This document shows, in pieces, positions 2,445-10,000 of a stretch of 10,043 bases of DNA. The DNA lies in assembly GCA_016932965.1 (NCBI GenBank), contig JAFGBW010000066.1, positions 1 through 10,043 of the forward strand, in the 5' to 3' direction. Position 1 is the first letter of the stretch. Every line of letters begins with the position of its first letter. The notes beneath the pieces are model-generated. The model saw only the letters and a list, made by a program, of their open reading frames with translations. It did no database searches and was not told the DNA's origin. Position numbers and translations under genes: made by a program. The stretch is from Candidatus Auribacterota bacterium. GTDB taxonomy: Bacteria > Auribacterota > JAFGBW01.

Positions 2445-3806
2445 TTATCCCTCCGTCATTTGGATGCGGTCTCCACCCTCTCTCTTCGCCTTATAAAGGG
2501 CCTGGTCGGCTGCTTCAAGCAGTTTATCACGATCTTCTCCGCTTTCAGGGAAAAAAGCGATACCCGCGCTGATCGTGACCTTGAATTCGGTGGAAGTGCC
2601 GGGGTTGAAAACCAGTTTGGCAATAGCCTTTTTAATACGTTCGACAATCTGAAGAGACTCTGTCAGGGAGGCACCCGGCAGGATGAGCGTGAATTCATCT
2701 CCTCCAAAACGGGAGATCAAATCTTCCTCCCTGCAGCGGCTTTTCAATATCCGGCCGATTTCCTGGATCACATGGTCTCCCATCAGATGTCCATGCTGGT
2801 CATTGATGGATTTGAAATGATCCACATCCATCATGACAACGGAAAAGATGGTTTTTTTCCCCTTGTGCCGTTTTATTTCCTCTTCAAATAAGGGAAGAAA
2901 ATGGCGCTTCAGGTACGTACTGGTCAAACTGTCGATAGTGGAAAGACGCTTGATTTTTTCGTACAGTCTGGATTTTTTTATTTCCATGGAAAAATGAAGA
3001 GACAAGAGTTCTAGCTGATTTTCAAAGGCAGTTCTTTTGTCATTGAAATAAACCAGCACTCCGAGAAAATCCGTCTGGAAATACAATGGCACCACATGAG
3101 CCCCCATGGAAGAGCAAATATCAAAGGAACTGGCAACAAGGCCGAACTGAACCGGATCAGAAACGGTTTGAATGTTTTTTTCATGCCGCATTCTGGAAAA
3201 GACAACCTCCTCCGCCTGAGAGCATGGATACGATTCCAAAACGGGATTGGAGACAGAACACCGATAAGCTCTCAAAACAGCAGAAGAAGCGCCGTTCTCT
3301 TCAGAAGAGTCCGATTCTGCTAAAATCAAATGAAGCTTCTGGAATCCTTCCATCTGGATGAGCCCTTTCACATAAGACTCAAGCGTTTCATTAAAATCAA
3401 GAGTGGAGCTCATGGCGAGTGTGGCCTTGTAGGCAGAAGAAGTCTGTTCCACACTCGATATCAATTGTTGAATGGAAGCCTGGACATCCTCTTCTTTGTC
3501 GCTGTATGTAAGAAATTCCTGTTGGATCAGATTGCATTCCCGCTCTTGTTCTCCTTTTTCTTTTTCTATTTGTTTCATGCGGCGATGATTGATAAAAATG
3601 AAAATGAACAGCGTGATAATGCCGAGAAAACGCGAGGCAAATTCAAGAGAAAAAAAACGGCCAAAAAAGGAATAAAAATAAAACAGGCCACCGATGAAAA
3701 GCAGCAGGATCTGTATGAGGACCGAAATTGCTTTTTTGTTGAGTGACATGCTTTGATTCATCAGAAGGATCATCAGGATAAAAAACAAGGCTAAAGGCAG
3801 GTTCAT
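2445..3806 (-). CDS. Membrane-anchored GAF-GGDEF diguanylate cyclase with intact I-site
   Basis: The 453-residue product should make cyclic di-GMP from two GTP on the cytoplasmic face of the membrane. Three hydrophobic helices lie at about residues 3-20, 26-47 and 55-73. They are followed by a charged, coiled-coil-like linker (about 74-120), a GAF-like sensor region (about 130-280) and a GGDEF domain from DSLT at 292 to about 450. Catalytic features are present: Asp327 in MMDVDHF for metal binding, the signature GGDEF at 368-372, and the conserved ISAGIAFFP and ADQALYKAK blocks. The inhibitory I-site REED occupies 359-362, exactly five residues before GGDEF, so product feedback inhibition is expected. 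The ATG overlaps the TGA of the upstream cyclase gene (ATGA), implying translational coupling; no strong Shine-Dalgarno of its own is seen. The GAF ligand is unknown. Confidence 0.9.
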   Translation of the reverse strand: MNLPLALFFILMILLMNQSMSLNKKAISVLIQILLLFIGGLFYFYSFFGRFFSLEFASRFLGIITLFIFIFINHRRMKQIEKEKGEQERECNLIQQEFLTYSDKEEDVQASIQQLISSVEQTSSAYKATLAMSSTLDFNETLESYVKGLIQMEGFQKLHLILAESDSSEENGASSAVLRAYRCSVSNPVLESYPCSQAEEVVFSRMRHEKNIQTVSDPVQFGLVASSFDICSSMGAHVVPLYFQTDFLGVLVYFNDKRTAFENQLELLSLHFSMEIKKSRLYEKIKRLSTIDSLTSTYLKRHFLPLFEEEIKRHKGKKTIFSVVMMDVDHFKSINDQHGHLMGDHVIQEIGRILKSRCREEDLISRFGGDEFTLILPGASLTESLQIVERIKKAIAKLVFNPGTSTEFKVTISAGIAFFPESGEDRDKLLEAADQALYKAKREGGDRIQMTEG

Positions 3807-5260
3807 GGGATAACTACCGTCCTGTTCCGCCCTTGCTTCTTGGCCAGATAAAGCATTTCATCGGCTTTTTGGACAAGAATTCTCCCCTCTTTGCCGTCTT
3901 CAGGAAAAGACGAAACGCCGATGCTTAAGGTAAGATGAATGCTTTCTCTGCGTAAGGTCAAAGGATTTTCATCAAATGATTTTCTTATCTTTTCAGCGAC
4001 GCAAAAGGCTTCTTTTTTACCCATACCTTCCAGTAAAACGGCGAATTCTTCGCCTCCATACCGGATGGCCAACCCTGACTTGGGAATATTTTTTAGGATT
4101 TTCGCGCTCGTTTGCATCAGAACATGGTCACCCACCACATGGCCAAATGTGTCATTGATCCTTTTGAAATGATCCAGATCCATCATCAGGAGACTGAAGG
4201 GGCTGTTTTGTTGATTGTCCTGGTTCTGGCTGATCAGGTTGGAAATGGTTTCAAATAGAAAATGGGGCAAATAGAGCCCCGTCAGGCCATCGGTAACAGC
4301 GAGTTTTTCGGTCTGCTTGAAAAGTTCGGAATTTCTCAAGGAAAGAGCTGAAATATTGGCTATGATGACTAGCATACGGAATTCATTAATATGAAACTGA
4401 TTGGGGTTTTTGGAATCAATCCGTATAACGCCCATTGGTTTGTTATCTGAAATCAAGGGGGAAGCGATAATGGAACGGGAAAGCGGATAAAACAAAGGGA
4501 CATCCCCTTTGATTTGAAACCGGTAGTCTTCAAGAACGTCATTGATTCTCAAAGGGGAGCGGTAATTCATCACCCATTCATTCAAAATATCCTGCTGGTC
4601 CGGACGGAGATGGACATCTTCCCTGTTTTCTCGGACGATAAAATGAGTGGTGACCGGCTCTCTTTTGGGATTGAAAAGAAAAAGGGAATACAGATCAGCG
4701 TGGGGAAGGTTCTCATTAACAAAATGAAGAATCCGATCCGATAGATCCTCCTTGGACAGAGCAAAATTGAGCTGGGATATATAATTTCTCAAATTTGAAA
4801 AACGCTGAATTTGAATCTCCAGGGACTTTTTTTTCAAATTTAAGTGTTCCAAAGCCTGCTTTTTTTCATTTAATTTTTCCTTGATTTTTTCTATTTCCAG
4901 TAAACCGGAGCGCCTGGTCTCAGAAATGCGTTCACATTGACGCCGATAAATCAGCTGAAGCAGGATAAAAAGTGGGACGGCCGCCAGAAAGGAAAACCTA
5001 GAAAAAATCAGCGTGGACAGACTCATGAGAACCACGCAGAAAAAAGAGAAAATCAGGGCGCCGGTTCCGGAAATAAATCTGTTCGCTGGCAATCCAATGC
5101 AAATGAGCCAAAAAATCACGAGTTCAGCGCAATGAGAATAGACGATACCGGTATCAGATAAGAGAAAAAAGAAAAGAACCGAAAAGAAAAGAAAAAGAGA
5201 ATTGATAAAAAAGGTCAGTCTTTTAATTTGAATAGAAAGGATGAAATTGGTTGCGTTCAT
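3803..5260 (-). CDS. Membrane-anchored GAF-GGEEF diguanylate cyclase lacking the I-site
   Basis: First gene of the minus-strand operon, 485 residues. Four hydrophobic helices (about 14-34, 42-58, 66-86 and 87-105) precede a Lys/Glu-rich coiled coil (about 110-160), a GAF-like domain (about 165-315) and a GGDEF-family domain starting at DGLT (324). Active-site elements look complete: Asp361 in MMDLDHF, GGEEF at 402-406, TLSIGVSSFP, and ADEMLYLAKK. The RxxD inhibitory site expected at 393-396 reads PKSG, so allosteric product inhibition through the canonical site is unlikely. Its layout matches the downstream cyclase, which suggests an old tandem duplication followed by divergence. The ATG at 5260 lies only about 8 bases after the predicted transcription start and has no Shine-Dalgarno, so it may be translated from a nearly leaderless mRNA. 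Confidence 0.9.
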   Translation of the reverse strand: MNATNFILSIQIKRLTFFINSLFLFFSVLFFFLLSDTGIVYSHCAELVIFWLICIGLPANRFISGTGALIFSFFCVVLMSLSTLIFSRFSFLAAVPLFILLQLIYRRQCERISETRRSGLLEIEKIKEKLNEKKQALEHLNLKKKSLEIQIQRFSNLRNYISQLNFALSKEDLSDRILHFVNENLPHADLYSLFLFNPKREPVTTHFIVRENREDVHLRPDQQDILNEWVMNYRSPLRINDVLEDYRFQIKGDVPLFYPLSRSIIASPLISDNKPMGVIRIDSKNPNQFHINEFRMLVIIANISALSLRNSELFKQTEKLAVTDGLTGLYLPHFLFETISNLISQNQDNQQNSPFSLLMMDLDHFKRINDTFGHVVGDHVLMQTSAKILKNIPKSGLAIRYGGEEFAVLLEGMGKKEAFCVAEKIRKSFDENPLTLRRESIHLTLSIGVSSFPEDGKEGRILVQKADEMLYLAKKQGRNRTVVIP

Positions 5261-5274
5261 GCTTTGACGGGGGG

Positions 5275-5304
5275 ATTATAAAATCAGATTCCCGGGCCTG
5301 TCAC
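5275..5304 (-). promoter_or_regulatory. Sigma70-type promoter of the cyclase/transglutaminase operon
   Basis: On the minus strand GTGACA (plus coordinates 5299-5304, five of six matches to TTGACA) is followed after 18 bases by a perfect TATAAT (5275-5280). The predicted start of transcription falls near 5268, about 8 bases before the ATG at 5260. The location immediately upstream of the first operon gene supports it; it is a sequence match only. Confidence 0.6.
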
Positions 5305-5334
5305 CATAATTCCCATTCAAAGTTTATTTTCTAC

Positions 5335-5364
5335 TTGACAATTCATAGAAAGAGATTATTGAAT
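5335..5364 (+). promoter_or_regulatory. Candidate nusA promoter
   Basis: A perfect -35 hexamer TTGACA at 5335-5340 faces nusA. The -10 is poor: TTGAAT at 5359-5364 (18-base spacer, four of six) or TATTGA at 5357-5362 (16-base spacer, three of six). It is the only convincing -35 in the 174-base divergent gap, and a promoter is needed there because the neighbouring operon runs the other way. Predicted transcription would start near 5371 and leave a leader of about 60 bases. Confidence 0.4.
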
Positions 5365-5394
5365 TTCTGTTTAACTTTACGGTTTTTTATGACT

Positions 5395-5423
5395 GGGGTG
5401 GCAGGACCACTCCTTTATTTTTT
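5395..5423 (+). terminator. Terminator-like hairpin in the nusA leader (putative attenuator)
   Basis: GGGGTGG (5395-5401) can pair with CCACTCC (5407-5413), giving a seven-pair stem with one G-U wobble and the five-base loop CAGGA, directly followed by the T-tract TTTATTTTTT (5414-5423). This is the shape of an intrinsic terminator on the plus strand. On the minus strand no T-tract follows. The nearest plus-strand gene upstream ends at 870, far beyond a minus-strand operon, so it cannot be an ordinary end-of-gene terminator for that gene. It sits between the presumed nusA promoter and the nusA ATG at 5435, which fits a leader attenuator. Pairing was judged by eye. Confidence 0.55.
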
Positions 5424-5434
5424 AAGCGGATTTT

Positions 5435-6772
5435 ATGAAAACAACCAAAACACCCAAAATCAATAATGAATTAAAAAGCATTGTGGATTACATGGAAAGG
5501 GAAAAGGGATTGGACCGGAAAATCCTTCTGGAAACCATCACCTCCTCTCTGCATCTGGCTGCCAGAAAAAGCGTGAGTGAAATCTCCAATCCGGCTATCC
5601 GGATTGACCCTGAATCTTTCATCGTCACCGTTTATGGAGAATTTCATGTCATTGAAGATTCCAAAAATGCCAAAACCAACGAAATCAACCTGAAGGAGGC
5701 CCTGGAAATTGATCCCAACGCCGTAGTCGGCGGAACGATTTTGATCGAGGCAACACCTGATAATTTCGGCCGTATTGCCGCCCAGACTGCCAAACAGGTC
5801 ATCATACAGAAGCTCCGGGATGCAGAAGCGAACGTGCTTTACAACGATTATAAGGACAAAGTAAGCCAAGTTATTTCAGGAATAGTCCGCCATTATGATA
5901 AAAAAAACGTCATTTTGGATGTGGGTCGCGGGGAAGCCGTTCTGCCTCCCAGAGAACAGGTGGAAACGGAAGAATATCATGTGGGTGACCGTTTAAAAAT
6001 ATATGTTCTTGAAGTCAATAAAAGCGGGACTCATTCAGAAATTGTCGTTTCCCGTTCCCATCCGGGTTTTGTAAAAAAACTGTTTGAAATCGAGGTTCCG
6101 GAAATCGCTGATAAAACCGTTGAAATCAAAGGCATTGCCAGAGAGGCTGGTTTCAGGACCAAGATTGCCGTATATTCCAAGGACCCCAAGGTGGATTGTG
6201 TCGGAGCCTGCGTTGGAATGAGAGGCGCCCGGGTTAAAAATATCGTTCACGAATTGAACGGGGAAAAAATCGATATTGTACCCTGGTCCATGGATATCGG
6301 AATCTATTGCCGAAACGCCCTGAATCCGGCAAAATTGAAACACCTCGAAATTGATGAACCTGGCAAACGTATTCTGATTTATGTGGATCAGAATCAATTT
6401 TCTCTTGCCATAGGCAAACACGGCCACAATGCCAGACTGACTTCAAAATTGCTCGGATGGAAAGTGGATGTTCTGGTGGCTGAAAATGAAATGCAGACGG
6501 TTTCTTCCACTCCTTCCTCCACTTCCCATCGTCGTGACATGAAAACAGAGGTTCCTCAAGAATTGGATGAACGTTTAAAAATATCCATCGAAGAGATCGA
6601 AGGGTTGAGCAAAAAGGTAAAGGAATCCCTTGTCGATGCTGGATACCATTACCTCGGCGAATTGAAATCCCTTAAAATAGAAGAATTGTATGCCATTCCC
6701 GGCGTCGGAAAATCCAATGCCGGTGAAATCATGGACCATATTCAGTCTGCCATGAAAAAAGTGGTCGGCTGA
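5435..6772 (+). CDS. nusA: Transcription termination/antitermination factor NusA
   Basis: The 445-residue protein binds RNA polymerase and nascent RNA, controlling pausing, termination and antitermination. Domains in order: the N-terminal polymerase-binding domain (about 1-140, beginning with the typical IVDYMEREKGLDR), an S1 domain (about 145-208, with LPPREQV), KH1 (about 225-300, with GACVGMRGARV), KH2 (about 305-350, with AIGKHGHNARLTSKLLGW), then a Ser/Thr-rich linker (355-368). A short helix-hairpin-helix region (about 380-445, with IPGVGKSNAG) ends the protein, so only one C-terminal repeat-like unit follows KH2, unlike the longer enterobacterial protein. KH1 has Cys255 where Pro is usual before VGACVG. 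The start at 5435 is preceded by a weak AAGCGGA (5424-5430). It heads the nusA-infB-rbfA-truB cluster without rimP in front of it. Confidence 0.97.
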   Translation: MKTTKTPKINNELKSIVDYMEREKGLDRKILLETITSSLHLAARKSVSEISNPAIRIDPESFIVTVYGEFHVIEDSKNAKTNEINLKEALEIDPNAVVGGTILIEATPDNFGRIAAQTAKQVIIQKLRDAEANVLYNDYKDKVSQVISGIVRHYDKKNVILDVGRGEAVLPPREQVETEEYHVGDRLKIYVLEVNKSGTHSEIVVSRSHPGFVKKLFEIEVPEIADKTVEIKGIAREAGFRTKIAVYSKDPKVDCVGACVGMRGARVKNIVHELNGEKIDIVPWSMDIGIYCRNALNPAKLKHLEIDEPGKRILIYVDQNQFSLAIGKHGHNARLTSKLLGWKVDVLVAENEMQTVSSTPSSTSHRRDMKTEVPQELDERLKISIEEIEGLSKKVKESLVDAGYHYLGELKSLKIEELYAIPGVGKSNAGEIMDHIQSAMKKVVG

Positions 6773-6807
6773 ACAGGGTTTCATATGACGAATAACATGA
6801 ACCAGAA

Positions 6808-6839
6808 GGATTCAGTACCGTATCGTCGCAGCTGAATCC
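6808..6839. other. 8-bp inverted repeat in the nusA-infB gap
   Basis: GGATTCAG (6808-6815) is the exact reverse complement of CTGAATCC (6832-6839), with a 16-base spacer. No T-tract follows on either strand, so it is not a classical terminator. It could be an RNA hairpin for processing or mRNA stability, a protein operator, or a small dispersed element. It begins 36 bases after the nusA stop. Confidence 0.5.
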
Positions 6840-6871
6840 GCCTGATGTACAGAATGGATATGGTGAGTGGC

Positions 6872-6889
6872 ACGGATAATAGAATCCGT
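6872..6889. other. 6-bp inverted repeat in the nusA-infB gap
   Basis: ACGGAT (6872-6877) and ATCCGT (6884-6889) are exact reverse complements separated by the six bases AATAGA, forming a compact potential hairpin 33 bases after the larger inverted repeat. There is no poly-T tail. The role is unknown; a six-base stem in 225 bases may also be chance. Confidence 0.35.
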
Positions 6890-6932
6890 ATCAATATGAG
6901 TGACATTTGTATTATATGTGGTTTCTAAACAG

Positions 6933-6941
6933 TGATATAAG
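6933..6941 (+). promoter_or_regulatory. Possible extended -10 promoter for infB
   Basis: TGATATAAG at 6933-6941 matches the extended -10 pattern TGnTATAAT with one mismatch. No good -35 lies 16-18 bases upstream, which extended -10 promoters can tolerate. Transcription would begin near 6948, about 56 bases before the infB ATG. The wide gap after nusA makes an internal promoter plausible, but this is a weak match in AT-rich DNA. Confidence 0.3.
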
Positions 6942-7003
6942 AGAATCATTTTCATGTACTTCTTTGTTGAGAAAACGGATTTGTTAGTGATTTAAAATTG
7001 ACC

Positions 7004-9418
7004 ATGCGCATTTATGAAATAGCAAAAAAACACGACTGTTCATCCAATGAAGTCAAAACGATTTTGGATGAGTTGAAGATTCCCTATAAGTCCCATTCTT
7101 CAACTATCGATGAGGACGTGCTCCCCAAAGTGGAGAATCGGCTTGTCAAGTTTCTCCATAAAAAGCCCCCTTCTTCCGGCCAGGTTCATAAAACCGATAA
7201 ACCTGAGGCTGAACCAGCGGAATCCGTTTCTTCTGAAGCGCATAAAACTAAAGGTAAATCTGTAAAAGAAAAAAAAATCTCCCATAAGACCGATTCGGAT
7301 CTATCCCATCAGAAAAAAAAGCCTTCTCATCCGCAGGAGCGGATTAAAGAAATTCCGGAAAAGAAACCGGAGGATAAGAAAGACAAAAAAAAGGAAGAGC
7401 CGCTAAAGCCCCATCCGGTTCAACCGGAATCCCTTGAGGAACCGATCCCGCCTCCTTTGCCGGATACGGATGATTTTAAAGAGGATTATGAATCCTATGA
7501 AGAGGCTTATGAAGAAAAATTTTTAAAGAGAAAAATTCCGAAATCAGACCGGGTTAAAAGCACTCCCAAACAGTCGGAAACCTGGGACAAAGATCAAAGA
7601 GAAGAAGAGGCAGTTCCCCGCGCTGAAGAAGTCAAGCTCATCCGTCCAACCGGTAAGGTGACCGTTCCAGATGGACTGACCGTCAAGGAACTTTCAGAAG
7701 TCATCGGAATTCCCGCCTCTGAAATCATCAAAAAATTATTTCTTCTTGGCATGATCGCCTCCATCAATCAGCAATTAGATAAAGACACTCTTTTGATTGT
7801 CGCGGATGAATTCAAGATCGATCTGGAAGTGAAGGATGTGGAGATCACTTCTGAAGTGGCGGAACCCATCACGGAAGAATTGTTTTCCAAAGAAGAAGAT
7901 ACCCTGGAAGTCCGCCCCCCTGTCATCACGATCATGGGGCATGTGGATCACGGCAAAACGACTTTGTTGGATTATATCCGGAAAAGTAAGATAGTGGAAC
8001 AGGAATCCGGCGGAATCACTCAGCACATCGGCGCGTATCTGGTGGAACATGATAATAAAAAAATATGCTTTCTGGATACTCCGGGACATTCAGCGTTCAC
8101 CGCCATGCGAGCCATGGGAGCCAATGTAACGGATACGGTTATTCTGGTTATTTCCGCCGTTGAAGGCATTCAGCCGCAAACAGTGGAATGCATCAATCAC
8201 GCCAAGGAAGCGGAGGTCCCCATCATCGTAGCGATCAATAAAATTGATATGGAAGGGGCCAATGTGGATAGAGTGAAAGGACAATTGGCTGAAATGAGTT
8301 TGACGCCGGAAGACTGGGGTGGTGATACCTTATGTGCTTCCATATCTGCCTTAAAAGGAATTGGTATTGATGAGTTGTTAAACGCCGTCAATCTTCAGAC
8401 TGAACTTCTGGAATTAAAAGCCAATCCCAAAGGTAAACCCTTGGGGATAGTCATTGAAAGCTGTCAGACAGACCATATGGGACCCTTGGTGACGGTATTA
8501 GTGAAAAACGGAGAGTTTAAAGTGGGCGATGCCGTAGCATGCGGGCATGTTTATGGAAAAATAAGAAGAATGGAGGATGACCGTGGAAACTCCGTACCAA
8601 CGGCCTCTCCTTCCGTTCCCGTGAGAATTTTCGGTTTTTCTAGCGTACCGGACACCGCCGCCAGAGTCCGTGTTTTTCCTTCTGAAAAAGATGCCAGGGA
8701 ATCAGCAAGAGTCGAAGCAGAGAATCGCCGTCATAATGCCCTGAAGAAGAAAGAAACCATCACCCTCGACAATCTTTATTCAACCATTCAGGCTGAATCA
8801 AAAAAAGAGTTAAAGGCCATTTTAAAAGCGGATGTCATCGGATCCATCACGGCTTTGAATTCGTTATTCGCCGGATTGCCAACGGAAAAGGTCAAATTAA
8901 AAATCATCCACTCAGCCACAGGGCCGGTGAGCGATTCTGATGTGATGCTGGCTCATGCATACCACGCCATTATTCTGGCATTTCGAACTAAAACCACTCC
9001 TTCAGCCGCCCAACTCATTAAAAAACATGAAGTAAAAATAAAGGAATACGGCATCATTTATCAAGTTCTGGATGATGTTAAAAAATACATGGAGGGATTG
9101 TTAGACTGGGAATATGTCGAGGCCACTTTGGGTACTTGCGAAGTCAAGAAAGTCTTTAAAATCGGTAAAATTGGCCTTGTGGCCGGCTGCCTCGTCACCC
9201 AGGGAAAAGTCACGAAAGATGCTCAGTGCCGAATAAAAAGAAATGGAGAATTACTGGATTTAACCTGCAAGGTTGCATCCTTACGTCATTATAAAGATGA
9301 AGCTTCTGAGGTCAAAATGGGCGGGGAATGCGGAATCAGTCTGGATGGTTTCACCGATATTCAGGAAGGGGATATTCTTGAGTTTCATCAGATGCAAAAA
9401 GTGGAATCGGCATTATAA
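7004..9418 (+). CDS. infB: Translation initiation factor IF-2
   Basis: This 804-residue GTPase recruits initiator fMet-tRNA to the 30S subunit and promotes 50S joining. I chose ATG 7004 ([10 protein letters not shown], the usual IF-2 beginning); TTG 6998 in the same frame adds two residues. There is no Shine-Dalgarno before either. Domains: an N-terminal IF2N subdomain (about 1-50), a long Lys/Glu/Pro-rich disordered linker (about 55-215), and a second IF2N (about 219-275). The G domain has G1 GHVDHGKT (312-319), switch [10 protein letters not shown]3 DTPGH (358-362), G4 NKID (412-415) and G5 SAL (448-450). Domain II (about 478-565) and the C-terminal domains C1 and C2 (about 585-800) follow, ending with the GECGI block of the fMet-tRNA-binding domain. 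Several well-conserved motifs are altered, including MRARGA to MRAMGA and GFNVR to AFRTK, but every GTPase motif is intact and the gene looks functional. Confidence 0.97.
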
Positions 9419-9637: not shown

Positions 9638-10000
9638 ATGCCCTATAGAATGGACAAAGTGAATGAAGAGCTGCATAAGATTCTCAGTGATATCATTTTA
9701 ACCGAATTGAATGAAAAAGACGCCTCCGCCTATCTTTACACCGTCACTTCGGTCAAATGCAGCAGAGATCTGCAAAATGCAACGGTTTTTGTTTCCGTCC
9801 TTGGCGACAAGGAAAAATCGTCTCATGGTTTTTTGATTCTCTGCCGGCATTTAAAAAAAATCCAGTCCCTGTTTTCAGAACGGATTCACTTGAAATACAC
9901 ACCGAGACTTTATCTCAAACTGGACGAAACCGCTGCTTACGCGGAAAGAATCGGCCGTCTCATAGATCAGGTCTGCCGGCATGAGCATGAGGAAAAATAA
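9638..10000 (+). CDS. rbfA: 30S ribosome-binding factor RbfA
   Basis: The 120-residue protein has the length of the RbfA family, a single KH-like domain that binds the immature 30S subunit and assists maturation of the 5' end of 16S rRNA. Family landmarks are visible in order: YRMDKVNEELHKILSDII at the N-terminus, TSVKCSRDLQNATVFVSVLG in the middle (family form: V-x-V-S-x-D-L-x-x-A-x-V-x-V-S-V-L-G), and TPRLYLKLDETAAYAERI near the end (family form P-x-L-x-F-x-x-D). The cysteine at VKCSRD replaces a more usual Val/Ile-Ser context. It follows infB after 219 bases and precedes truB by 11 bases, its standard position. A strong Shine-Dalgarno supports the start. Confidence 0.93.
   Translation: MPYRMDKVNEELHKILSDIILTELNEKDASAYLYTVTSVKCSRDLQNATVFVSVLGDKEKSSHGFLILCRHLKKIQSLFSERIHLKYTPRLYLKLDETAAYAERIGRLIDQVCRHEHEEK

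Follow-up and report, generated by a model that had tools for sequence, protein, structure and literature searches.

The nusA-infB-rbfA operon of a Candidatus Auribacterota bacterium is probably preceded by an attenuator of the rimP-leader type, at which NusA would stimulate termination of its own leader transcript and so exert negative feedback on the operon. The element lies at 5395-5423 of the window, the whole 10,043-nucleotide stretch of DNA that was analysed. Its stem is conserved and covaries throughout the phylum, where no RimP was detected.

The hairpin and its surroundings in the window

The features on which the argument rests are as follows.

5335..5340, + strand: presumed nusA promoter, -35 hexamer TTGACA, a perfect hexamer 63 nt before GUGG
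5357..5364, + strand: weak -10 candidate TATTGAAT, from position and spacing alone, matching TATAAT at 3-4 of 6 positions
5395..5413, + strand: putative attenuator hairpin GGGGUGG-CAGGA-CCACUCC, from the fold, strict terminator scan, conservation and covariation
5414..5423, + strand: U-tract UUUAUUUUUU, by direct reading; a U-tract is present in all aligned relatives
5435..6772, + strand: nusA, 445 aa, with NusA_N, KH_5 and C-terminal HHH domains (Pfam above cut-off)
7004..9418, + strand: infB, next in the presumed operon (Pfam IF-2 domains)
9638..10000, + strand: rbfA (Pfam RBFA)

The arms of the hairpin, GGGGTGG (5395-5401) and CCACTCC (5407-5413), enclose the loop CAGGA (5402-5406) and form a stem of 7 bp with a single G-U pair (5397-5411). 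The tail TTTATTTTTT follows directly 3' at 5414-5423. A seven-pair stem with one wobble and a T-tract was what the first-pass annotation had described, and direct reading and folding bear this out. Folding of 5365-5440, which it had proposed as a check, gave the structure as stated, with z = -2.66 against shuffled sequences, and the hairpin alone has a predicted energy of -9.9 kcal/mol. The G-C pairs at the base of its stem place it above the weakest class of terminators.

We scanned both strands of the window with strict terminator criteria (at least seven pairs, at least five of them G-C, and at least eight T in the next 10 positions). The 5395-5423 site was the sole match, and a site of this kind appeared in none of 1000 dinucleotide-shuffled versions of the intergenic region 5261-5434. 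A long-range helix between 5366-5374 and 5421-5429, covering the region before the start codon, was considered and rejected; it would require transcription to begin no later than 5366, and the relatives folded do not show it. The hairpin is not part of the nusA reading frame, given an in-frame TAA at 5423-5425, 9 nt before the start.

The hairpin was said to lie between a presumed promoter and the start of nusA, and so it does, with TTGACA at 5335, the ATG at 5435 and a predicted transcription start at about 5369-5372. The upstream gene, encoding a GGDEF protein, is on the minus strand (3803-5260) and therefore leaves no plus-strand gene for the hairpin to terminate, as had also been claimed. 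This gene is one of two adjacent diguanylate cyclase genes (2445-5260, minus strand), which overlap by 4 nt and are divergent from nusA; both carry GGDEF and one also GAF. On the downstream side, nusA and infB are some 230 nt apart, and this spacer (6773-7003) contains no open reading frame of at least 60 aa. The gene ylxR, which often sits between nusA and infB in other bacteria, was not seen there.

Conservation of the nusA leader across the phylum

We compared the leader with those of relatives in a collection with 3 genomes of the window's order and 44 of its phylum. The first-pass annotation had made its reading depend on conservation of the stem, and had called for a search of related leaders for compensatory changes. 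A hairpin was found at the corresponding place in all 40 readable nusA leaders of the phylum, the window included, with the consensus AAGAGUGGG, a short loop and CCCACUCUUUU. Pairing holds for 96.3% of stem cells across the 39 relatives, and compensatory changes are present: both partners have changed in 25 cells, as against 7.8 in shuffles and at most 5 in slid controls. These changes fall at four pairs and include U-A to C-G and G-C to A-U. The U-A to C-G change is common to eight genomes of one genus and may represent a single event. One G-C pair is invariant in the 39 relatives, and no G-C pair has flipped to C-G.

The promoter is similarly constant in position. In each of the 40 leaders the best sigma-70-like site lies 56-76 nt before GUGGG (one at 96), with a median of 63, which is also the value in the window. 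A promoter score of at least 9 was reached in 38 of the 40 leaders versus 5 of the 37 stretches further upstream that served as controls. The near-constant placing of this promoter-like site just upstream of the hairpin argues that the transcript on which the hairpin works is that of nusA itself. Since the predicted start as a rule precedes the hairpin core by only 20-40 nt, an aptamer or a large antiterminator would hardly fit; in the aligned phylum leaders the 10 nt that precede the stem showed no conserved columns.

Two local observations were made in the course of this comparison. In leader L004 (genome G001), the nusA start is immediately preceded by AAAAAGAGTGGGGATTATG, a repeat of the attenuator's 5' arm that would be able to pair with the 3' arm, and the predicted fold of this leader prefers that pairing; a second layer of control is possible in this one genome. 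In genus g4, three loci (L123, L124 and L125) have a nusA of about 386 aa followed in the same frame, after one stop codon, by an infB-like next long frame. The nusA-infB fusion suggested by open frames of 1425-1467 aa in this genus was thus discarded, the two frames being parted by a stop.

Nearly all other phylum members carry GUGGG...CCCAC, and by eye the copy in the window is the most divergent of the set. In register it reads GUGG/CCAC; the outer A-U pair has become G-C, the next-but-one A-U pair has become G-U, and the loop-closing G-C pair is lost. The position of the window's G-U pair is A-U in 24 of 27 sequences, so that the weight which the first-pass annotation had placed on the wobble finds no counterpart in conservation. 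To gauge specificity we searched the phylum with a covariance model trained on the 39 relatives, the window copy being excluded. Among the matches listed with E < 0.01, those outside a nusA leader came only from genus g4 (family f3), and are presumably general terminators resembling the g4 variant. In the window's own genome the best match was the nusA leader at 22.6 bits, and the next, an ordinary terminator-like hairpin, scored 22.3 bits; the window copy is therefore identified by its place and not by its sequence. The plain pattern GTGGN{3,12}CCACTY was uninformative, with 42 matches in the genome, fewer than its reversed control.

Relation to the rimP leader and the absence of RimP

The anatomy of the element recalls a published class that the first-pass annotation had not recognised. 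The rimP-leader attenuator, called the most widespread attenuator, precedes rimP-nusA-infB in most bacteria; its stem, GGGc(...)gCCC, was found in no other terminator class, it is as a rule without an antiterminator, and NusA was favoured as its effector with RimP possible (Naville & Gautheret 2010, Genome Biol 11:R97, PMC2965389). Like this class, the element predicted here is a short G-rich/C-rich terminator hairpin with a U-tract, situated in the nusA-infB operon leader, lacks a larger conserved aptamer or antiterminator, and lies 4-130 nt before the first gene. In contrast to it, the first gene is nusA, and the phylum yielded no RimP. The copy in the window also departs from the GGGc(...)gCCC signature, reading GUGGC...ACCAC with two of the three G-C pairs. 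Judged by its sequence, the element is thus a variant of the rimP-leader attenuator rather than a strict member, because nusA replaces rimP as the first gene and the signature is incomplete in the window. Rfam leader families gave no match at gathering score and nothing relevant at relaxed E-values; matches to AniS and to the L20 leader were weak, rested on the terminator and were set aside.

Two experimental systems offer points of comparison. In the rimP operon leader of Streptococcus agalactiae, RNA-seq placed termination 31 nt after the start (PMC4448216). The terminator is thus very near the transcription start in both cases, at 31 nt there and a predicted 50 nt or so here, although rimP is the first gene in S. 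agalactiae. For Bacillus subtilis, NusA-stimulated leader termination is reported in the summary that the review PMC12288461 gives of Mondal et al. 2016. As summarised there, the two share an intrinsic terminator in the nusA operon leader and a proposed negative feedback by NusA; the B. subtilis case is experimental whereas ours is inferred, and it concerns another phylum and another operon start.

The operon had been described as lacking rimP in front, which proved correct on a scale that the first-pass annotation was unaware of. The RimP_N (PF02576) and RimP C-terminal (PF17384) domains were found in 0 of 44 phylum genomes, in a search that recovered both domains in 10 of 14 control genomes. 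As far as these domain searches can tell, the lack of rimP in the operon reflects its lack throughout the phylum, and the element therefore directly precedes nusA.

We also examined 35 genomes outside the phylum. The out-of-phylum set in which pairing was measured had been picked for GGG/CCC-type hairpins, and its high pairing is consequently not counted as independent evidence. RimP is present in 27 of them, and in 16 of these 27 a hairpin of the same type lies 31-126 nt before the RimP_N domain. Among the eight genomes without RimP, two (G047 and G055) carry the hairpin directly before nusA, and a third (G076) has a less similar hairpin some 200 nt before it; the other five had no such hairpin in the stretch read. 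The phylum model recovered the hairpin at 12 outside loci with E < 0.01.

A feedback model and its alternatives

These data lead us to propose a mechanism for the control of nusA-infB-rbfA. The hairpin and U-tract would form an intrinsic terminator about 25 nt downstream of the point where nusA transcription is predicted to begin. Some transcripts would end near 5420, with termination in vivo expected at 5414-5423, to leave a leader RNA of roughly 50 nt, and the remainder would read through into nusA-infB-rbfA. We infer that NusA sets the efficiency of this terminator, such that abundant NusA would lower its own supply and scarce NusA would relieve termination. NusA is the best candidate for the feedback factor because RimP is undetectable, and by analogy with B. 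subtilis. The first-pass annotation had already read the leader as an attenuator on which NusA acts, and this reading gains support as likely from the phylum-wide hairpin, the compensatory changes, the absence of RimP and the match to the rimP leader. Against it stand the odd character of the window copy, which has lost its loop-closing G-C pair, the weakness of the -10 box, the nearly equal score of an ordinary terminator-like site in the same genome, and the G-C pairs at the base of the stem.

An attenuator of the same anatomy could instead be set by NusG, polymerase speed or ribosome loading, or be constant and simply lower basal expression. We regard this as unlikely. The sequence cannot say which factor acts, and NusG-dependent terminators also have U-tract interruptions and a TTNTTT motif (PMC8060035), which is found in the tail of the window copy and among the 39 relatives in 18. 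However, the element keeps its sequence beyond what pairing demands, in the invariant G-C pair and the lack of flips to C-G, which suggests a specific recogniser and for which a constant attenuator would have no need. Moreover, the controlled operon is nusA's own, in lineages with and without rimP.

The remaining explanations detach the hairpin from attenuation altogether. By sequence it is a good intrinsic terminator, and among the relatives L012 and L014 each have an upstream reading frame in the same direction that ends close by, as would suit a terminator or insulator against upstream transcripts with no bearing on nusA control; given that the window's upstream gene runs the opposite way and that all 40 leaders have a promoter-like site shortly before the hairpin, such a role is very improbable. 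The proximity of the inverted repeat to the promoter would also fit a DNA operator bound by a repressor, but the many G-U pairs on the transcript strand, the U-tract always on one side and the G-rich arm always first are features of an RNA, and we give an operator scarcely any credence. A NusA-stimulated attenuator of rimP-leader type thus remains our preferred reading.

The 2010 description of the rimP leader did not decide between RimP and NusA as the feedback factor. The element has been kept before nusA in a phylum where RimP is undetectable, and RimP is therefore removed as a candidate there. Tentatively, we suggest that the rimP-leader element stayed with nusA in this rimP-less phylum as a NusA-specific RNA signal, whose GUGGG/CCCAC sequence, in addition to its fold, would be recognised by NusA or by the polymerase that carries it; the window copy would then indicate how far such a signal may drift. 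The natural variants, C-G in place of U-A in one genus and GGGGUGG in the window, could be used to probe what NusA requires.
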